Assembly (NCBI GenBank): GCA_026874595.1
Contig: CM049308.1
Location: forward strand, 92,383,624-92,447,623
From: Sipunculus nudus
Taxonomy: Eukaryota; Annelida; Sipuncula; Golfingiida; Sipunculidae
Length of the DNA: 64,000 nucleotides
Direction: 5' to 3'
Of the stretch, positions 9,781-64,000 are shown in pieces (position 1 is the stretch's first letter; the number at the start of each line of letters is the position of its first letter). The translations under genes and the position numbers were made by a program. The notes under the pieces are model-generated. The model was not told the DNA's origin. It did not search any database and saw only the letters and a list, made by a program, of their open reading frames with translations.

Positions 9781-11408
9781 ATCTTCAGGGATGAAGATAT
9801 TGGCAGGTAAGTCTTCAGTAGAGGAGACTATGATAGCAAAAGATCTTCAGTAGACGTGAAGATGGCAAAAGTAGAAGTGACCATGAAAGCAGACAGATCT
9901 TCAGCAGAGATGACCATGATGACAGACAGATCTTCAGTAGAAGAGATCATGATGGCATAAAATCTTCAGTATAGGTGACCATGATTGCAAAAGATCTTCA
10001 GTAAAGGTGACCATGATGGAAAAAAAGTTCTTAAATAGGGGTGACCATGATGGTATAAGGTCTTCATCAGAGGTGACGTGGATAGCAAAAGATCGTCAGT
10101 ACAAGTAACCATGATGGCAAAGGTCTTCAGTAAAGGTAACCATGATGGAAAAAAAGTTCTTAAATAGGGGTGACCATGATGGTATAAGGTCTTAAATAGA
10201 AGTGACCATAACAAAAGATCTTCAGTACAGGTAACCATGATGGCAAAAGATCTTAAGTAAAGGTGACCAGACATGCATGATGGCTAAAGTAGAAGTGACC
10301 ATGATGGCAAAAGACCTTCAGTAGAGGAGACCATGATTGCAAAAGATCTTCAGCAGACATTACGATGACGGCAGCCTAATCTTCAGCAGAGATGACGATG
10401 ACGGCAGCCTAATCTTCAGAGATGACGATAATATCAGATCTTTAGCAGAGATGACGAGGACGGCAGCCTGATCTTCAGCAGAGATAACAATGACGGCAGG
10501 CAAATCTTCAGAGATGACGATAATGGCGGGTCTTTAGCTGGAATGACAAGGACGGCAGCCTGATCTTCAGCAAAGATGACAATGACGGCAAACTAATCTT
10601 TAGAGATGACGATAATGGCGGGTCTTTAGCTGGGATGACGAGGACGGCAACTTGATTTACAGCAGAGATGACGATGACGGCAGGCAAATCTTCAGAGATG
10701 ATAATATCAGATCTTTAGCAGAGATGACGAGGACAGCAACCTGATCTTCAGCAGAGATGACGATGACGGCAGGCAAATCTTCAGAGATTACGATAATGGC
10801 AGATCTTTAGCAGAGATGACGAGGACGGCAGCCTGATCTTCAGAGATGACGATAATATCAGATTTTTAGCAGAGATGACGAGGACGGCAGCCTGATCTTC
10901 AGCAGAGATGACAATGACGGCAGGCAAATCTTCAGAGATGACGATAATGGCAGGTCTTTAGCTGGGATGACGAGGACGGCAGCCTGATCTTCGGCAAAGA
11001 TGACAATGACGGCAGGCTACTCTTCAGAGATGACGATAATGGCGGGTCTTTAGCTGGGATGACGAGGACGGTAGCATGATCTTCAGCAGAGATGACGATG
11101 ACGGCAGGCAAATCTTCAGAGATGATAATATCAGATCTTTAGCAGAGATGACGAGGACAGCAACCTGATCTTCAGCAGAGATGACGATGACGGCAGGCAA
11201 ATCTTCAGAGATTACGATAATGGCAGATCTTTAGCTGGGATGACGAGGACGGCAGCCTGATCTTCAGCAGAGATGACGATACTGGCAGGCTGATCTTCAG
11301 AGATGACGATAATGGCAGATCTTCAACAGGTATGACGATGACGGCAGTGTGATCTTCAGCAGACATGACGATGACGGCAGTGTGATCTTCATTTAAGATG
11401 GCGATACT
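9781..11408. repeat. Intergenic minisatellite array, ~30-bp units with ~92-bp higher-order period
   Basis: From 9781 to about 10340 the unit is about 31 bases, of the form GATCTTCAGTA-AGGTGACC followed by ATGATGGCAAAA. From about 10345 to 11408 it changes to GATGACGATGACGGCAG plus ATCTTCAGCAGA-type units. There, three related subunits (GATGACGAGGACGGCAGC, GATGACGATGACGGCAGG and GATGACGATAATGGC) cycle with a period near 92 bases. A 102-codon frame on the - strand at 9966-10274 is a product of the repeat and not a gene. Confidence 0.9.
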
Positions 11409-21275: not shown

Positions 21276-21428
21276 GGTACAGATGACAATGCTAACCCCA
21301 GAATATCGTCCTCGCGAGGGAGGACGGCCGATGAGCCACACATAGGGAAATACCGGCTCATCAAAACCATTGGCAAGGGCAACTTTGCCAAGGTGAAATT
21401 AGCCAAACATGTGCCAACAGGAAAGGAG
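21276..21428 (+). CDS. MARK: MARK/Par-1 kinase, coding exon 2 (linker and glycine-rich loop)
   Basis: Acceptor TTTCAG ends at 21275 and donor GTAAGT starts at 21429. The exon is 153 bases, 51 codons, phase 0 on both sides. It encodes a Ser/Arg-rich linker ([14 protein letters not shown]) and then [31 protein letters not shown], the start of the Ser/Thr kinase domain. IGKGNFAKV is the glycine-rich ATP-binding loop (GxGxxxxV). The [21 protein letters not shown] string is characteristic of MARK/Par-1 and separates it from SIK and BRSK relatives. MARK kinases phosphorylate the KXGS motifs of tau and MAPs and control cell polarity at the cortex; LKB1 activates them. That biology is family knowledge. 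The exon boundary after ...TGKE matches the known human MARK exon layout as I remember it. CpG is retained in this exon (near 21309-21333) although the surrounding introns are depleted. Confidence 0.93.
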
Positions 21429-26509: not shown

Positions 26510-26563
26510 GTTGCCATAAAAATAATAGACAAGACACAGTTGAATCCATCCAGTCTACAGAAG
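26510..26563 (+). CDS. MARK: MARK/Par-1 kinase, coding exon 3 (VAIK lysine strand)
   Basis: The exon is 54 bases, 18 codons, phase 0 at both ends, encoding VAIKIIDKTQLNPSSLQK. The acceptor is ATCTTTCAG ending at 26509 and the donor is GTAAGA at 26564. The lysine of VAIK is the ATP-anchoring lysine of the beta-3 strand, and DKTQLNP-SLQK is a MARK-family signature leading into the alphaC helix. The size and both boundaries fit the MARK gene layout, in which the next exon is 49 bases and starts with the LFREVR segment. It is separated from that exon by an intron of about 36 kb. Confidence 0.95.
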
Positions 26564-30271: not shown

Positions 30272-32274
30272 TTTTTAGGTCTTGGTTAATCATCACAAAA
30301 TGTGGATATGGGTCAGAGCAGGGCAGTCTTAGTTAATCATGTAAACATTCCACAGCAAGACATTCTCAGTTAATCATCTTGTGTATGTGTTCCACAGTAA
30401 GCCAGTCTCAGTTAATCATGTCATCTATTTGGTCCACAGCAACACAGCCTTAATTTATCATCTTGTTTATGGGGTCCACAGCAAGACAGTGTTAGTTAAT
30501 CATCTCATGTATGTGGTCCACAGCAAGAATCTCAGTTAATCATCTCATGTTTGTTGTCCACAGTCAGTCTTGGTTAATCATCTTGTGAATGTTGTCCACA
30601 ATAAGTCAGTCTCGGTTAATCATTTTGTGTATGTGGTCCACAGCAAGACCATCTAGTTTAATCATCTCATGTATGTGGTCAATAGCAAGACACTTTGAGT
30701 TAATTATCTTGGTATGTTATCCACAGCAAGACAGTCTCAGATAATCATTATGTGCACATGTATGCTCCACAGCAAGACAGTCTCAGTTAATCATCTTGTT
30801 TATTTTGTCCACAGTAAGTCAGTCATGGTTAATGATCTTGTGTAGGTTGTCCACAGTAAGTCAGTCTAGGTCAATCATCTCATGTATGTGGTCCATATTA
30901 AGTTAGTCTTGGTTAATCATCTCATGTATGTGGTCCACAACAAGACAGTCTCAGTTAATCATCTCAAGTATGTTGTCCACAGTCAGTCTTTGTTAATCAT
31001 CTTGTGAATGTGTTCCACAGTAAGTCAGTCTCGGTTAATCATTTTGTGTATGTGGTCCACAGCAAGACCATCTAGTTTTTATCATCTCATTTATGTGATC
31101 CATAGCAAGACACTTGAGTAAATTATCTTGGTATGTGGTCCACAGCAAGACAGTCTCAGTTATTCATTATGTGCACATGTATGCTGCACAGCAAGACAGT
31201 CTCAGTTAATCATCTTGTTTATGTTGTCCACAATAAGTCAGTCTTGGTTAATCATCTTGTGTATGTTGTCCACAGTAAGTTAGTCTAGGTTAATCATCTC
31301 ATGTATATGGTCCACAGTAAGTCAGTCTTGGTTAATCATCTCATGTATGTGGTGCACAACAAGACAGTCTCAGTTAATCATCTCAAGTATGTTGTCCACA
31401 GTCAGTCTTTGTTAATCATCTTGTGAATGTTGTCCACAGCAAGTCAGTCTCGGTTAATCATTTTGTGTATGTGGTCCACAGCAATACCATCTAGTTTAAT
31501 CATCTCATTTATGTGGTCCATAGCAAGACACTTGAGTTAATTATCTTGGTATGTGGTCCACAGCAAGACAGTCTCAGTTATTCATTATGTGCACATGTAT
31601 GCTGCACAGCAAGACAGTCTCAGTTAATCATCTTGTTTATGTTGTCCACAATAAGTCAGTCTTGGTTAATCATCTTGTGTTTGTTGTCCACAGTAAGTTA
31701 GTCTAGGTTAATCATCTCATGTATGTGGTCCACAGTAAGTCAGTCTTGGTTAATCATCTCATGTATGTGGTGCACAACAAGACAGTCTCAGTTAATCATC
31801 TCAAGTATGTTGTCCACAGTCTCGATAAATCATTTTGTCCACAGCGTGGACCACAAGACAGTCTCAGTTAATCATCTAGTGTATGTGGTCAACAGCAAGA
31901 CTGTCTCAGTTAATCATCTCTTGTATGTTGTCCACAGTCATCTTGTGAATGTTGTCCACAGTAAGTCAGTCTCGGTTAATCATCTCATGTATGTGGTCCA
32001 CAACAAGACAGTCTTGATTTATCTTCTTGTGTATGGGGTACACAGCAAGACAGTCTTAGTTAAACATATTATGTATGTGTTCCACATCAAGACAGTCTCA
32101 GTTTATCATCTGGTGTATGTGTTCAACATAAGACAGTCAGTTTATCATCTGGTGTATGAGGTCCACAGCAAGACAGTATCTGTTTTTAAATCAACTCATG
32201 TATGTGGTCAACAGCAGGAGTCTCTGTTAATAATCTTTTTGCATGTTGTCCACAGCAAAACAATCTCAGTTATT
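30272..32274. repeat. 46-bp minisatellite array with 419-bp higher-order repeat
   Basis: Units of about 46-47 bases have the form CAGTCTCAGTTAATCATCT, CATGTATGTGGTCCACAG, CAAGA; there are roughly 43 of them. A longer period is also present: the segment TCAGTTAATCATCTCA followed by a shortened unit recurs at 30532, 30951, 31370 and 31788, giving a 419-base higher-order unit of nine subunits. The 240-codon frame over 31723-32445 is a by-product of this array plus the next repeat. Confidence 0.92.
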
Positions 32275-32650
32275 TTGACATTGAATACTTCATTTTTCCC
32301 TACACCTGTCTCAGGTGAGAATCCAAGCTCAGGTAGCATGAAAATTAACTTTAAAAACACCTGCACAGGTCAAGGTAGGAATAGTGTATTCATGAGTTTC
32401 ATCATATACATGCAACAGGTCCGCAAAACCTACTGTGCTACATAACAATTAAACAATGTTACTGATATATAAAATAAAAAGAAAAATAAAACTTATTTAC
32501 CATTGATAGCACAGAAAATTCCTGTAAAATTCTATAGTTTATGACTAGCTTGCATTAAAAACATTTGCATATTCATATCAGTTTTTCTGATTTTATTGGT
32601 TCATGTGTAAGGTTAGGTTGCTCGCATTCTTTATTTAACCACAACTTGAA
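32275..32650. repeat. ~370-bp repeat, copy 2 (embedded in the 46-bp array)
   Basis: Second copy of 29740-30115. The 46-bp units resume after it, to about 32825, so this copy lies inside the array. It contains CTGTCTCAG directly followed by GTGAGA at 32315, where copy 1 has a different sequence. Confidence 0.8.
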
Positions 32651-41559: not shown

Positions 41560-43885
41560 ACTCTTTGTCCGTCTGTCTGTATGTCCGTCTGTCCACCAGG
41601 CACAAATCATAACCGCTGAACCTAGAACCTTGTAACTTGGGATTCTGAGAGGTCCATGAAAAATCTCCTTGGAAACCAGAAATTAGGTCTCTGTTACCCA
41701 TATCCTTCGAGCTATCGGGCCCCAAAGTACCCCCCAGAAAAGTCAAAAATTTCATACAAAAACTTCAATATCTATTAACTACTTGACTGATGGTCATGAT
41801 TTTTGGCATACATATTGATCATGAGATGTTCCATCACTTCCTGCAGACTGGTGGCGCCACCTGTATTTTTCGATTTTTTACAAATTTTTTTCTCTATTTT
41901 TGAGACCTTTAAAAATGTGAACATCTGTTAACAAGGCACAAATCGTAAAGCCTAGACCTAGAATCTTAATTCTTGATACACTGAGAGGTCCATGAAAAAT
42001 CTCCTTGGAAACCAGAAATTAGGTCTCTGTTACCCATATCCTTTGAGCTATTGGGGCCCCAAAGTACCCCCCAGAATAGTAAAAAATTTCATACAAAAAC
42101 TTCAATATCTCAATAACTACAACACTGATGGTCATGATTTTTGTCATACATATTGATCATGAGATGTTCCATAAGTTCCTGCCGACTGGTGGCGCCACCT
42201 GTATTTTTCGATTTTTTTACAATTTTTTCCTCTATTTTTGAGACGTTTAAAGATGCTGTCATCTGTAAACGTGGCACAAATCGTAACCGCTGGACCTAGA
42301 ATCTTCATTCTCGACACACTGAGAAACCTATTAAAAGTCTCCGTGGAAACCATAAATTAGATCTCTGTTACCCATATCCTTCGAGCTATGGGGCCCCAAA
42401 GTACCCCCCAGAAAAGTCAAAAATTTCATACAAAAACTTCAATATCTCATTAACTACTTGACTGATGGTCATGATTTTTGGCATACGTATTGATCATGAG
42501 ATGTTCCATCACTTCCTGCAGACTGGTTGTGCCACCTGAATTTTTTGATTTTTTACAAATTTAAAAATGTGAACAGCTGTTAACAGGGCACAAATCATAA
42601 AGACTAGACCTAGAATCTTCATTCTTGACACACTGAGAGGTCCATAAAAAGTCTGCATGGAAACCTGAAATAAGGTCTCTGTTACCCATATCCTTTGAGC
42701 TATGGGGGGCTCCCAATAACCCCCCAGAATAATGGAAAATTTGATAAAAACAAACTGCAACATCTCAATAACTACAACACTGATGGTCATGATTTTTGGC
42801 ATACATATTGATCAAGAGGTGTTTCATCAGTACCTGCAGACTGGTGGTGCCACCTGTATTTTTTCAAATTTTCACAATTTTTTTTTCTCTATTTTCGAGA
42901 TTTTACAGGATGTAGTTATCTGTCAACAGGGTACAAATCGCAACAACTGGACCTAGAATCTTCATTGTTGACACACAGGGAGACCCATGATAAGCCCCAT
43001 GGACACCTGAAATTAGGTCTCTGTTACCCATATCCTTTGAGCTATGGCACTCCAAAGTACAGCTCAGAATAATGGAAAATTTGATACAAAAGCTGAAGTA
43101 TCTGAACAACTAATGCAGAGATCACCATAATTGTTTTCATGGATATTGATCATGGAGTGTTTCATCAGTTTCTGCAGACTGGTGGCACCACCTGTATTTG
43201 TTCGATTTTTTTACGAATTTTTTCTCTATTTTTGAGACCTTTAAAGTTATGAACATCTGTTAACAGGGCACAAATCATTAAAACTGGACCTAGAATCTTC
43301 ATTCTTGACACACAGGGAGACCCATGAAAATTCTCCATGGAAACCTGAAATTAGGTCTCTGTTACCCATATTCTTTAAGCTGTATGGCTCCAAATTACCC
43401 CCCAGAATAATGGAAAATTTGATACAAAAACTGCAGTATCTCAATAACTACAACACTGATGGTCATGATTTTCGGCATACATATTGATCATGACCTGTTC
43501 CATCAGTTTCTGCAGACTGGGTGCGCCACCTCTATTTTTTTCAAATTTTTATGATTTTTTTTCTCTTTTTTTGATACCTTTAAGATGTGGTTATCTGTCA
43601 ACAGGGTACAAATCGCAACAACTGGACCTAGAATCTTCATTCTTGTCATGCAAGAAGGCCCATGAAAAGTGCCTGTGGAAACTTAAAATTAGGTCTCTGT
43701 TACCCATATCCTTCAAGCTATAGGACTCTGAAGTATCGCTCAGAATAATGGACAATTTGATACAAAAGCTGAAGTATCTGAACAACTAATAGGGAGATCA
43801 CCATGATTCTTTGCATGGATATTGATGTTTGTAAGTGTTTTTATTAGTTTCTGCAGACTGGTGGAGCCACCTGTATTTTTGTACC
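41560..43885. repeat. ~337-bp tandem array (about 7 units)
   Basis: The segment around GGCACAAATC (or GGTACAAATC) recurs at about 41599, 41935, 42273, 42587, 42930, 43267 and 43605, giving periods of 314-343. Each unit contains AGGTCTCTGTTACCCATAT, TGATGGTCATGATTTT and, near its end, CTGGTGGCGCCACCTGT or a variant, followed by a T-rich stretch. Short - strand frames here repeat the same peptide and are not treated as genes. Confidence 0.92.
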
Positions 43886-43959: not shown

Positions 43960-45480
43960 GCTCCTCTGGGACTTGATTTTATCAGCTTTCCAAGCTCATA
44001 TCTCGGGAACCGTTTGACTGATCAGGAAATAAAATTTATACTAATGTAGCCCTTGGATAGCTCTATAACATACACAACATACGCCACCTGTAACCATGTT
44101 TGCACAGTGTCCATCTGTTCATCTGCCTTTGGTTAAAATCACTCATATCTCTGCAGTGAATTGACTAATTCACCTGAAATTCGGCATGCGTATACATCCT
44201 GGATAGCTTTCTTGATTTTATGACAGGTGGCGCCACCTACATTCTCATTCACGCTGATGACATCCAAGCTCATATTGCGGGAACCGTTTGACCAATCGGG
44301 CCAAAATTTTGCATGTATATAGATCTAACATAGCTCTTTATCATACACAAAACTGGTGGCGCCACCTGCAACCATTTTTGCACAGCGTCTGTCTGTTTGT
44401 CTGCCGTGCAATAATGTCACTCATATCTCGGCAGTGGTTTGACATATCTGCCTAAAATTTTGCAGTTTTATACATCCTGGATAGCTTTCTTGATTTTATG
44501 ACAGGTGGCACCACCTACATTCACGTTCACGCTGATGACATCCAAGCTCATATCTCGGGAACCGTTTGACCGATCGGGCCAAAATTTTGCATCTTTATAG
44601 ATCTAACATAGCTCTTTATCATACACAAAACTGGTGGCACCACCTGCAACCATTTTTGCACAGCATCTGTCTGTTTGTCTGCCGTGCAATAAAGTCACTC
44701 ACATCTTGGCAGTGGTTTGACATATCTGCCTAAAATTTTGCAGTTTTATACATCCTGGATAGCTTTCTTGATTTTATGACAGGTGGCGCCACCTTTATTC
44801 TAGTTTATGCTGCAGACATCCAAGCTCATATCTCGGGAACCGTTTGAACGATTGGGCCAAAATTCTGCATGTGTATAGATCTCACATAGGTCTTTATCAT
44901 ACACAAAACTGGAGGGGCCACCTGCAACCATTTTTGCACATTTCGCACAGCGTCTGTCTGTTGGTCTGCCGTGGCCTAAAATCACTCATTTCTCTGTAGT
45001 GGTTTGACATAACTGCCTAACATTTTGCAGGTTTATACATCCTGGATAGCTTTCATGATTTTATGACAGGTGGCGCCACCTACATTCTAGTTAACGCTGC
45101 ACACATCCAAGCTAATATCTCAGGAACCATTTGACTGATTGGGCCAAAATTGTGCTTGTGTTTAGATCTCACATAGGTCTTTATCATACACAAAACTGCA
45201 ACCATTTTTGCACAGCGTCTGTCTGTTTGTCTGCCGTGGGCTAAAATCACTCATATCCATGTAGTGGTTTGACTTTTCTGCTTAAAATTTTGCATATGTA
45301 TACAACTTGGACAGCTTTCTGGATTTGTGGTAGGTTGCACAACCTACATACACATTTAGGCTGCAGACATCAATGCTAATATGCAACATACCTCACTCTG
45401 TTTCCCCTTGCAACTCAATCCATGCCTCACTTCACTCTGATTTTGGCAGATACACGTAGTCACTTGTCGGCTACCCGTAT
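43960..45480. repeat. ~278-bp tandem array (about 5 units)
   Basis: CATCCAAGCTCATAT-like starts lie at about 43987, 44261, 44539, 44817, 45104 and 45368. Each unit has TCTCGGGAACCGTTTGACC, GGGCCAAAATTTTGCAT and two palindromic cores of the GGTGGCGCCACC type, at roughly 128/150-base alternating spacing. Confidence 0.92.
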
Positions 45481-52825: not shown

Positions 52826-52871
52826 TGTAACGATTATCTTTAGTAAATAGATGTCAGATTTGGAATATGCC

Positions 52872-53296
52872 CTTGTTACATCCTCTCATCCCTCCATCTC
52901 CCAGTACCAGTCAAACTCAGTGACACTTATTACTGTAACATCCTCTCATCTCTGCATCTCACAGTACCAGTCAAACTCAGTGACACTTATTACTGTAACA
53001 TCCTCTCATCCCTCCATCTCCCAGTACCAGTCAAACTCAGTGACACTTATTACTGTAACATCCTCTCATCCCTCCATCTCCCAGTACCAGTCAAACTCAG
53101 TGACACTTATAACTGTAACATCCTCTCATCCCTCCATCTCCCAGTACCAGTCAAACTCAGTGACACTTATTACTGTAACATCCTCTCATCCCTCCATCTC
53201 CCAGTACCAGTTAAACTCATTGACACTTATTACAGTAATATCCTCTCATCCCTCCATCTCCCAGTACCAGTTAAACTCAGTGACACTCATTACTTG
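52872..53296. repeat. 60-bp minisatellite (about 7 units)
   Basis: The period is exactly 60 bases: ACATCCTCTCATCCCTCCAT, CTCCCAGTACCAGTCAAACT, CAGTGACACTTATTACTGTA. Units differ at only a few positions, so the array is young. Because 60 is a multiple of three, an open frame of 156 codons runs through it. Confidence 0.97.
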
Positions 53297-56200
53297 TGTT
53301 ATGAATGTTGGGCCTTTGTAATTTCTTGCAAACTTTAGTTTGAAACTGACCTGGTTACTATGGCTTGGCTTCTGTGGCGTCTCAATCGACTTAAATGCTA
53401 CATCACAATAGAAAATAAAATATTTTGTTAGTCTTATAATGTTATGAGTATAGGAACCATGTTTTTATTTTGAGTAATTATGAAGTATTATGATGATTCC
53501 CAGCCTTATAACAATAGTACAGGGAGCATCATACAGGGAGCATGCTAATACACACTTGAAAACAAGGAAGACATTCCTATAATAATAATAATTAATTTCT
53601 TGTTGCACATATTTAGGGCAGTTTGCAGTTTGCTTCAGTGTGTATAAATGTATGTTGTGTTATATATCACAGAGTATGACTATTATCATGATGACACAAT
53701 GAAGATATAGTACAAAGAATGAAGGAAACCTTATTAAAAGTTAAGTCAGTAAATTTTGCTATTATGATTCACTCTGATACCTGAATTTAATATCAGTGTG
53801 TGAGTCAAAATTCCACAGTGATAGAGGGGTGACTTGGATTTAGGGTGAATGCTTTGTGGGACTGGTTTGGTATTCCCATTTGGACTGTATTGTGGATATG
53901 GCATGTCTTGTGAACAGGAAATGCAGCCTGATATTTGTCAGGGCAGTATGTGGGCCACACACTGTGTGTGAAGGAGAACAGGTCCTGACAGGGAGCCCTC
54001 TTGACCCTCATGTATAATCTCTCACACTGCCCTGAGTGGTACCACTGTCATTTGCAAATATGGCCTCCCCAAATACACGCAGTTACCAAGTCCAGTATAT
54101 TCTATTATATCAAGAGAGTCACAGTTCTCTGAACAAGAGAGTGAGAGACAGAAAGACAGACTTTATTAGACCAAGGAACTGTTTACATCTGAAAATTAAA
54201 ATTGATCTTTCACTGAGATGTAACATTTAAGGAGAGAGCAATTATTGGATGACCGTTAAAAGAAAAACATGATGTATTAAATGTAAACCACATCCCAAAA
54301 AGGATACTTCTCCAGTCTAGTTTTTGTGTTATTTATTGGGAGAAAGCAGTATATAGGTATGTAAGAGATAAATGAACAGTTGATCACAAGTGAAAAAGCA
54401 AGGAAAGGTTACAGTGACCAGACTGTATACAGGAATCTGTATCATCACATGAAATAGGTGTATGATTAAATGAATAAACCTGTGTTATATCCTTTGCAAA
54501 AGAAATTTAGTGTCAGAACTGTTGAAAGTCCATTTGGTAAAGTCCTACCCTGAAGCCTAAGTTGATATGCTACAGTTAAATAATCTCAAAGGTAGTATGA
54601 TAAACTGCCAATTGATAGATGATTCTGGATGATGCCCCAAGTTTTATATATTTTATTATGAACCTTTTAATGCAGTTGAAAGTGAAAAGGGAAACTTGTA
54701 ATCTGAAGTGAAGGAGTACAACAAGTACTTTTACTACTACTGTATGATCTGGTACTTAAAGCTTTGTAACCCTGGAGGTAATTGGTGCAACAAAATCCTG
54801 TACCGCTCCAGTACAAACCAGTATATAACATGTGTACATGTAACCATTGCGCTGCAGCACTTCACAATCTGTACCTGTCATTGTTGTGTGTATGCCGTGT
54901 ATGATCAGTACACTAAATGTTTACACTTGGATGAAAAAAAGGGTACTTGAACTGTACCCAAGTACCACTGACATACACAGTTCAAACGGTGGTACATGAT
55001 ATTTGGGAATTTTATGGAAGTAAAAAGATAAACTACAAACTATCCAAACTGTGCAGTCATGACCTTCCTCTTTTCATCCCAACACAGATTTTAGGGACTG
55101 GGTGTTTATGAATATTCATGTGGGAATCATAGACCTGTTGAATATTCATGATTTGCTCCATTACCTACCAGTAAAGACATTGATCTTGAAAGGTAAATGC
55201 CCTCTTGTTAAACCCTGTGTCAAAACATAATTATCCATTTCAACTGTACTCTGTTTGAAAAACAAGGTACACCAACTAAAGGTGCTATTATTGACTCTGA
55301 GTATATGAAACCCTAATATCTTGAAGGCTTATAAAATGAACACAGTGTATCATTCTTTATCATATGTTGAATCTTTTCTTCTTTCAGAAGTTTCTTGTCT
55401 AGTCCCTTCTTTTGAAAAAAATCCCATGGCATACAAGATTGTCCATACAAGATACAAGATATAAAAAATAAATGTTTGAGTGTACTTTAGCACCTCAAGA
55501 TCATACACTGACACCTCTGCATCAGTAAAATCCAACCCCCCACAATAAGCTTGTTTATTTAGCCACCAATAGTCAAGCACTTGGGTCTGGTGCAGTTCAT
55601 TCCGGTTGAACTTTGTCAAGACCTAATCTGATATGGAGATTTCTGTCTCCTGCAGGCACACATCAACCTGACATTAAAAAAGTTGACATGATCTAGTGCA
55701 TGACAAGTTCAGAGTTTTGTCTAAGGATCCAAAAATGCTGTACTAAGGATGTGCCTGATAAGGGGATTTCTTTTGCAGTGTGATGGAGCACATATACTGA
55801 TGCTTGTATAAGGTGTTATTTATAGTGAAGATGATCAGGGAGAATTGACATAGATAACACATGCATAAGAAACACTGAGAATCAGGAAAATTGATATATT
55901 TCAATTACTTGCAGTAATTTGTTACAAGTTAATATTATCCATCATTACTGTAGTTTGTGTCAACCAGTCATCTTTATTTATTGTTTTGATGGTATGTTTA
56001 TTAATATCTTAAAAAGGCTTTCAGTTAAAGTTTATAGAGATGCATGTCTTTGTAATGTTGCACAAAACTTTGTGGAAGAAACTTGCTTGTAAATATTCTA
56101 ATTATTTAATTTATGAACATGAATATTATAATGAATGGTATACAAACATCTGAAAAATACATATATTGACAATATGCTCACACCCTCTTTTTTTCTGTAT

Positions 56201-62100: not shown

Positions 62101-62561
62101 CAAGATATATATTTAGTTTTGAAGTTTTAGTAAACATTTATCAGGGTTTGTCAGTAGTAAGGAAAAAAAATTGGAAATAATTTTTTTTTTTGGGGGGGGG
62201 GGGAGGAAAAAATTGTAAAAAGAATCAGAAGTCAAGTGAAATCAGAATTAAGCAAATCTAGTAAATGTTTTGATGGAAATTTGAAATTTCAACTTCTTTA
62301 CAAAACAATTACTGTACGTGCTCAGACTTCTGTATACAGGCTTAAAAAATAGTAATTTATGCTATTTAAACCCCTCTGTTGCCTGCATCTGAGCAAAATA
62401 ATTAGGGTGGTTTCAAATGAAAATATTGAAGCAGACTTCCCTGTGTTTTATTGATCTGGGAAAAGTTGAACATTCATAAAGGGTTCCAATTGGGATGTGG
62501 CAACCTTGCTGAATTTGTCGCAAAACCTGGTACTTTTGGTAAACAAAAATACTCATTTCAG

Positions 62562-62610
62562 CTGTACAGGGAAGTAAGAATAATGAAAACATTGGACCAT
62601 CCTAACATAG
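62562..62610 (+). CDS. MARK: MARK/Par-1 kinase, exon 4a (alternative alphaC helix)
   Basis: Acceptor ATTTCAG ends at 62561 and a strong donor GTAAGT starts at 62611. The exon is 49 bases, starting in phase 0 and ending in phase 1 (ATA G|), and encodes LYREVRIMKTLDHPNI plus the first base of the next codon (Val in the family). The E of REVR is the alphaC glutamate that pairs with the VAIK lysine of exon 3 in active kinases. It differs from exon 4b at 12 of 49 bases and two residues: Tyr for Phe at position 2 and Thr for Val at position 10. Family members have Phe and a hydrophobic residue there, so 4a is the derived version. Its pyrimidine tract is weak (CAAAAATACTCATTTCAG), unlike that of 4b. 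Including both exons would shift the frame. Confidence 0.85.
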
Positions 62611-62698
62611 GTAAGTTTTGTTATATGTGTGGCCTCTGCAGGCTTGCTGTTGGTGTGGTTCTAACCTAACCCTGCCCTTGCCTGCTCTGTCTTTGCAG
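62611..62698 (+). other. 88-bp intron between the alternative exons 4a and 4b
   Basis: GTAAGT to CTTTGCAG. It contains CTAACCTAAC at 62661-62670, a strong branch-point match whose candidate branch adenines lie about 54-58 bases from the 4a donor and 30-34 from the 4b acceptor. A long pyrimidine-rich tract follows (62671-62695). Confidence 0.8.
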
Positions 62699-62747
62699 CT
62701 TTTTAGGGAAGTAAGAATAATGAAGGTTCTAGATCACCCCAACATAG
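62699..62747 (+). CDS. MARK: MARK/Par-1 kinase, exon 4b (canonical alphaC helix)
   Basis: Acceptor CTTTGCAG ends at 62698 and donor GTGAGT starts at 62748. The exon is 49 bases with the same phases as 4a, encoding LFREVRIMKVLDHPNI. This matches the family form (LFREVRIMK-L-HPNIV in vertebrate MARKs), so it is probably the ancestral copy. With exon 3 it supplies the Lys-Glu pair of the kinase N-lobe. The pyrimidine-rich tract and consensus branch point upstream suggest efficient default use. Six codons differ from 4a only silently (seven bases) and two change the residue (five bases), which suggests selection on both copies. The following exon (VKLFEVIE... in the family) is not in the window. 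Confidence 0.93.
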
Positions 62748-64000
62748 GTGAGTGTGCTTCTGTGATATCTTCATTGTTGTCATCCTCTCTGGTGCTGAAA
62801 TTGGTAAAGTTAATATCTGCTGATGCTGGTGTGGAAAAAACTGGCACTGGTCTAGTGAGACAAGAAGTTATAAATAACACATCATGTTTAGGATTATCTC
62901 ATTTTGACAAAACTATAGACTATAATATACTTTTTTTGTGGTCACAGAAATGCTTTATTCCTCTACAAAGTCAGCTGATACATAGAGCCCCGTTTTTTCC
63001 GTTTTAACAGAAAAATGGACGGAAAAACGGAATTACGGTTCGAAAACAGAACAAGGGTTCAAAAACCGAATTTTATTAAATGCATGTAATACGGCGGAAA
63101 GTTGGAATTTAGAGCAGATTTAAATTGCAAATAAAGAAATTCTCAGCCAATATCTTGTAAAAAAATCTTTCAAACTGCACCAGCCATCTACATAATGATT
63201 TAACAAGCAAATTCTGCCAATTTCGGCTCACAACTGTTACAGTAAGCACCAAGCTTTGATGTTACGATTATTAACAAACATGCCTGAAACGCAGATACCT
63301 TTGTGTGACATACATGCGGTTTCGCCGTGCGGTGGTAATCAGCCGAACCAAATCAGAATTATTCCAGATTCAATTCTTCAGTCCATTAAACCAACATTTT
63401 ATTACGTAAACATAATTGTGAGCTGTTTCTGTATTAATGAGAATTTTCTCTGTTAAAGTTTATACGCCAGAGTAAGCCAACCGAAAATTTTCCCTTATTG
63501 GGCCTATTATCGCCCATCCCGCCTCGTTCCCATGTATCTAGGTCACACTTCCGGGGGAGGGGGGGGGGGGATCCTACCATGGGTGGACGCAACACGTCCA
63601 TGTTACGTTCCCCTTCTATTTAACCTGTGTAGTTACTTCCCCGGTAGTTCTCCTGCTAATTATCTTTCCTATTAATTTCATCACATTCGGCCAAGTCCGC
63701 TTATTCCATTTTGAGTTATCTCTCATGTTTTTGCTCTCCCATGGTGTCGGATCTAGACGATTCGTCTCGACCCGCATCTTTTCACCTGGTTGCCTCTCCT
63801 ACCCGGTTCTCTGTCTTCGACCGCTGCCTCCCCGCCGGCCCCCCGCCGGCTTCCTTCCTTGTTTACGGAGCTGGCTGTTGCTGTCATGCTGGATTCCTCG
63901 GGGCTGCATAGAGCTGAGGTAGGTAATTCCGGCCCTCCTGCTTCCCCCTTTTTTTTTTTCAGCCGCCCTTGCTTCCTGTGATTCCCGCTGCTCCGACAGG
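62748..64000 (+). other. MARK intron 4 (start), with CpG-rich insert toward the right edge
   Basis: No next kinase exon is seen by the window end. At about 62985-63110 a CpG-containing stretch with short inverted pieces (TTTTTTCCGTTTT / ACGGAAAAACGG) appears. After about 63440 the sequence turns GC-richer, with G5-A-G12 at 63553-63570 and open frames in several phases after 63711. A mobile-element end is the simplest explanation; no domain was recognised. Confidence 0.45.
63480..64000. other. GC-rich, CpG-rich segment, possible 5' end of a mobile element
   Basis: Composition changes abruptly from the AT-rich, CpG-poor intron. Three overlapping frames begin between 63711 and 63790; one starts MVSDLDDSSRPASFH at 63741 and stops at 63909. 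A donor-like GAG|GTAGGT lies at 63918. I cannot assign a family, and the segment is cut by the window edge. Confidence 0.25.

Follow-up and report, generated by a model that had tools for sequence, protein, structure and literature searches.

Mutually exclusive exons within kinase domains are already known from p38, JNK and FYN. Those of Mapk14 (p38), Mapk9 and Mapk10 (JNK) lie in the C-lobe. The catalytic-domain exons of these three genes are spliced in a mutually exclusive manner, one per transcript (PMC1431701), and the mutually exclusive pair of FYN gives rise to the isoforms FynT and FynB (PMC9741552). In a survey of human genes, 377 of 629 clusters of mutually exclusive exons (60%) contained exons not divisible by three, and of the 273 such exons mapped onto structures, 87% began or ended within a helix or strand (PMC5740500). 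Here we describe a pair of neighbouring homologous exons, 4A and 4B, in a MARK/PAR-1 gene of Sipunculus nudus. The window analysed, meaning the whole stretch of 64 kb, takes in no more of the kinase domain than its start; the gene runs past the window end together with the exon that follows 4B. Exon numbers are those of the original prediction, and exon 1 was not located. The features of the gene within the window are as follows.

21276-21428, plus strand: MARK/PAR-1 exon 2, opening the kinase domain and encoding its glycine-rich loop; 51 residues, 153 nt in frame
26510-26563, plus strand: MARK/PAR-1 exon 3, encoding VAIKIIDKTQLNPSSLQK, which includes the VAIK lysine; phase 0 at its 3' end
62562-62610, plus strand: exon 4A, 49 nt, encoding LYREVRIMKTLDHPNI plus G; first version of the alphaC helix, with a strong donor and a weak acceptor
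62611-62698, plus strand: intron between 4A and 4B, 88 nt
62699-62747, plus strand: exon 4B, 49 nt, encoding LFREVRIMKVLDHPNI plus G; second version of the alphaC helix, with a strong acceptor and a strong donor

Exons 2 and 3 lie upstream of the pair on the same strand and in compatible phases, each was found as a single copy in the window by tblastn, and an intron of about 36 kb separates exon 3 from 4A. Exon 2 matched a MARK N-lobe segment, used as a tblastn query, with an E-value of 3.9e-15, and its splice sites scored 11.63 (donor) and 8.27 (acceptor at 21276). Its match to Pfam Pkinase was weak and partial (E 0.015, 15.2 bits against a curated cut-off of 31.7), as expected because the exon is a fragment of the domain. 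The donor of exon 3 ranked 10th among 4,011 GTs and its acceptor 23rd among 3,577 AGs (score 10.11). When the peptide of exon 3 joined to 4A was compared with PDB, MARK1-4 chains were matched at E-values of 1.3e-12 to 5e-14, the best SIK3 match at 1.1e-8 and the best BRSK2 match at 5.6e-5. With 4B in place of 4A, the corresponding values were 5.9e-14 to 3.7e-15 for MARK1-4 and 9e-10 for SIK3. Among AMPK-related kinases, the encoded N-lobe is thus nearest to MARK, and 4B outscored 4A against the MARK1-4 chains, the 4B query being one residue longer. In the PDB alignments displayed, which comprise MARK2, MARK3 and MARK4 and not MARK1, all three kinases carry Phe at the position of the 4A Tyr; at the Thr site of 4A they have Val, Ile and Gly, respectively. 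Judged from these chains and not from outgroups, 4B would be the common form, with 4A derived.

The window also contains several repeat arrays. A dense field of tandem repeats, their periods ranging from 32 to 424 nt, occupies 9812-11391, upstream of exon 2. Within the intron between exon 3 and 4A, a minisatellite with a 42-nt unit extends over 30349-32272 (38.2 copies at 30349-31937 and 8.0 copies at 31938-32272), lying partly inside a stop-to-stop open reading frame at 31702-32445, and long-period satellites of 338 and 278 nt are found at 41599-43880 and 44082-45382. Seven copies of a 60-nt repeat with 95% matches lie at 52874-53294, where two frames are open; the open reading frame at 52847-53338, scanned in one frame, had Pfam matches below the curated cut-offs only. 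A Pfam search of 7 of the 23 listed open reading frames and of exon 2 gave matches for exon 2 and the 52847-53338 frame only, all below the curated cut-offs, and scans of the whole window for Rfam families (at gathering thresholds) and tRNAs detected nothing.

Direct comparison of 4A and 4B showed 37 of 49 identical bases, a shared phase and GT-AG borders, and in both exons the closing G is the first base of the following codon. The two are homologous tandem exons within the same intron interval, of equal length, and each follows the phase-0 end of exon 3. Aligned in register, they share 9-12 of 15 bases per 15-nt block across the exon and the 4A donor, in contrast to 1-6 of 15 in blocks outside the exon and splice sites, and the introns flanking the two copies are dissimilar (11/30 and 12/30 matches). 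Since the likeness ends at the splice sites, the duplication is visible only in the exon and its splice sites. No third copy was found on either strand of the 64-kb window; the best ungapped match elsewhere was 29/49, a chance-level value, which argues that the resemblance of 4A and 4B is not due to chance. At the protein level, 2 of 16 residues differ: a Phe or Tyr two residues ahead of the conserved Glu, and a Val or Thr six residues past it. 4A keeps the reading frame, the Glu and the HPNI motif. The coordinates, the exon lengths, the 88-nt spacing, the shared phase, the peptides and the 37/49 identity given in the original prediction were all correct, and the alignments indicate that the tandem exon duplication on this key regulatory helix is real and apparently old.

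Pathway counting between the copies gave 9 synonymous changes over 9.83 sites and 3 non-synonymous changes over 38.17 sites, so that silent divergence is saturated and replacement changes are far rarer than silent ones in a comparison of the dN/dS type. The earlier count of seven silent differences among twelve is accurate for codons whose amino acid is unchanged and becomes 9 synonymous and 3 non-synonymous by pathway counting. We simulated free drift of 4A with a transition weight of 2, scoring the probability that no stop and no more than two amino-acid changes would arise; with 12, 10, 8, 6 and 4 changes on 4A, P was 0.001, 0.005, 0.018, 0.08 and 0.32, respectively. The saturated silent sites and few replacements suggest that the duplication is old and that both copies are constrained as protein. 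As to the earlier claim that neither copy is a pseudo-exon, constraint is favoured on both, but free drift could account for 4A if only 4-6 of the 12 changes fell on it; the simulation by itself would leave room for a mostly passive 4A. The rank of the 4A donor, 11th among 4,011 GTs, is a further sign of exon use.

Splice sites were scored with vertebrate-type matrices, which may not suit this species, and ranked among the AGs and GTs of the plus strand of the window. By this measure, the 4A acceptor scored -1.16 (rank 1530/3577 AGs), near background, and the 4B acceptor 12.21 (rank 4/3577); the 4B donor ranked 8th among the 4,011 GTs. The 4A acceptor consists of TTTCAG with little pyrimidine tract. 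The description of all four sites as intact was therefore too generous for the 4A acceptor, although it applies to the two donors and the 4B acceptor, which are strong. In lineages whose pyrimidine tracts are short, as in nematodes, such a TTTCAG core may be sufficient. The weak acceptor predicts either a pair that is unequal and regulated or a 4A that mostly goes unused, and it would feed the rival readings of a rarely used 4A and of a poison exon equally. The sites of both exons are of the GT-AG kind and look U2-type, so no U2/U12 incompatibility was seen.

Joining 4A to 4B brings a stop codon into frame.

62704-62706, plus strand: conditional stop TAG, in frame only when 4A is joined to 4B

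The joined product reads ...LDHPNI-Ala-Phe-stop, terminating two codons into 4B. The stop strengthens the original prediction that joint use of both exons would not give a full kinase. A transcript that skips both exons is 49 nt short and should by arithmetic be out of frame. The 88-nt intron contains two CTAAC branch-point candidates whose adenines lie at +54 and +59 from the 4A donor, 34 and 29 nt before the 4B acceptor. The proposed steric minimum between donor and branch point is about 50 nt (PMC7969005, PMC5740500). Because the candidates lie just above this value, the steric barrier is borderline and joining of 4A to 4B is not physically excluded; the barrier to joint inclusion is the in-frame stop. 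In the human survey, reads joining mutually exclusive exons were present in 83 of the 377 frame-shifting clusters (PMC5740500), which indicates that frame alone does not stop joining. For an RNA-structure switch of the docking/selector kind, none was detected within the flanking stretches tested. The fold of 62540-62770 had a z of +0.54, and 141 of 200 shuffled sequences folded at least as stably. When the 88-nt intron was paired with the 400 nt upstream and downstream, 16/30 and 24/30 shuffles did as well, respectively; with 1500 nt upstream and 1253 nt downstream the counts were 11/30 and 27/30. Splicing-factor motifs (TGCATG, ACTAAY, YCAY and others) in 62300-63000 were listed without a chance model and do not constitute evidence.

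On these grounds, we consider it most probable (roughly 0.72) that 4A and 4B are tandem homologous mutually exclusive exons, with 4B as the default, 4A as a weak exon that requires activation, and double inclusion as a dead end. An old local duplication would have copied a 49-nt exon that encodes the greater part of the alphaC helix and runs into the beginning of the alphaC-beta4 loop. With its very strong acceptor and a sequence nearer to known MARKs, 4B would serve as the default, and 4A, combining a weak acceptor with a strong donor, would be included only where splicing activators favour it, then replacing 4B. Transcripts with both exons would be cleared by nonsense-mediated decay, transcripts lacking both are expected to be out of frame, and the two kinases would differ at two alphaC positions only, a change expected to tune and not to abolish kinase regulation. 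Mutually exclusive use, the central claim of the original prediction, remains the best reading and is strengthened because joining creates a stop and because silent sites are saturated while replacements are few. Degenerate DNA patterns of the exon, with and without the donor, had no matches in virus and prokaryote collections, a result with no bearing on animals.

The same stop two codons into 4B would also suit a poison exon, in which 4A plus 4B ends the frame and regulated inclusion of 4A lowers MARK dosage with no second kinase being made. The weak 4A acceptor would fit such a role, and the 88-nt intron could be spliced, its branch-point candidates lying at an ordinary 29-34 nt before the acceptor. 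A poison exon needs no kept protein, yet the encoded peptides differ at just 2 of 16 residues across saturated silent sites, and we regard this reading as unlikely. We also think it improbable that 4A is a decaying or unused copy and that the protein comes from 4B alone. An acceptor at rank 1530/3577 is what such a copy might carry, and free drift would be compatible with just 4-6 of the 12 differences having arisen there (P 0.32 to 0.08); against this, 4A has one of the highest-ranking donors (11/4011) and has retained the frame, the Glu and HPNI despite the saturated silent sites.

Tandem artefacts of alleles or paralogues occur in assemblies of heterozygous invertebrate genomes, and 4A and 4B could in principle be two alleles or a mis-joined paralogue set side by side. 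The differing flanking introns (11/30 and 12/30), the single copies of exons 2 and 3 recovered by tblastn in the window and the saturated silent sites all argue against such an artefact, in whose favour nothing was found and which we judge very improbable. A last reading places the role of the pair at the nucleotide level and concerns a stretch common to both exons.

62568-62587 (4A) and 62705-62724 (4B), plus strand: 20-nt core AGGGAAGTAAGAATAATGAA, identical including silent positions, with an internal donor-like GAA/GTAAGA

Under this reading, the core would serve splicing, as an enhancer or a decoy, and the amino-acid difference would be of little consequence. Five consecutive degenerate codons are identical at their silent positions, against differences in 8 of the 10 others; the P-value is 0.016 in a runs test and 0.007 for the longest identical run, and the internal GAA/GTAAGA ranks 161st among the 4,011 GTs. 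The statistic was, however, chosen after viewing the pair, and a single pair was available. As the whole explanation, such a role seems highly unlikely; it is compatible with mutually exclusive use and does not exclude it, and the core could work in both exons as an enhancer or decoy of splicing.

MARK/PAR-1 kinases govern cell polarity and the microtubule binding of tau-like proteins. In MARK2, the catalytic Lys82 pairs with Glu100 of alphaC (PMC3724675), and by alignment the two variable sites of 4A and 4B would correspond to MARK2 Phe98 and Val106. The UBA/AID domain acts upon alphaC in AMPK and SAD-A, and alphaC takes part when the UBA of MARK or MELK docks on the N-lobe (PMC3724675, PMC4686854). 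The UBA-tyrosine pocket of MELK includes Lys62, next after the R-spine Leu61 (PMC3724675), and our alignment would place MARK2 Val106 right after the equivalent of this Lys62. In SAD-A, the UBA packs against alphaC at its C-terminal end. For MARK and MELK, the same source describes UBA domains that regulate activity indirectly (PMC4686854), which weakens a direct analogy with SAD-A. It is plausible that exon choice changes kinase regulation. The proposal that the Tyr or Thr of 4A forms a new phosphosite is unsupported. Possible, though doubtful, is the fuller scenario of two full-length MARKs that are tissue-regulated and differ on alphaC only, the Tyr/Thr form shifting the setting of alphaC or the docking of the UBA. 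If this were true, polarity signalling would be tuned by swapping the regulatory helix itself, and a natural pair differing at two residues on alphaC would represent an evolution-tested experiment on alphaC tuning in the MARK family.

In the passages covered, the literature on MARK2, MARK3 and par-1 exons described no mutually exclusive alphaC pair; the supplementary tables of surveys of mutually exclusive exons may list MARK. MARK2 has no mention in the main text of PMC9741552, PMC5740500 or PMC7954323. The oyster kinome contains four MARK genes, and the stem 'splic' is absent from the main text of that report (PMC4883820). The original prediction knew of no description of such a switch in MARK genes. 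Drosophila par-1, of the same gene family, is listed among the genes with mutually exclusive exons (PMC3303723); its alternative exons could match the alphaC exon, which would lower the novelty of the pair.

Mapk14, Mapk9 and Mapk10 resemble the present locus in having alternative exons inside a Ser/Thr kinase domain (PMC1431701), whereas the MARK pair encodes the alphaC helix of the N-lobe and its mutually exclusive use is predicted from sequence. FYN provides a tandem homologous pair that, like 4A and 4B, reaches the N-lobe of a kinase, but FYN is a tyrosine kinase and its pair takes in the SH2-kinase linker plus the N-terminal kinase region that holds the ATP site (PMC9741552). Exons 4a and 4b of OGDH are likewise neighbouring and homologous and are mutually exclusive. 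In the human gene it is the position of the branch points, 25-41 nt from the 4a donor, that keeps the two exons from being joined (PMC7969005). In comparison, the candidates in the MARK intron lie at 54 and 59 nt, and the stop that arises upon double inclusion is the clearer barrier.
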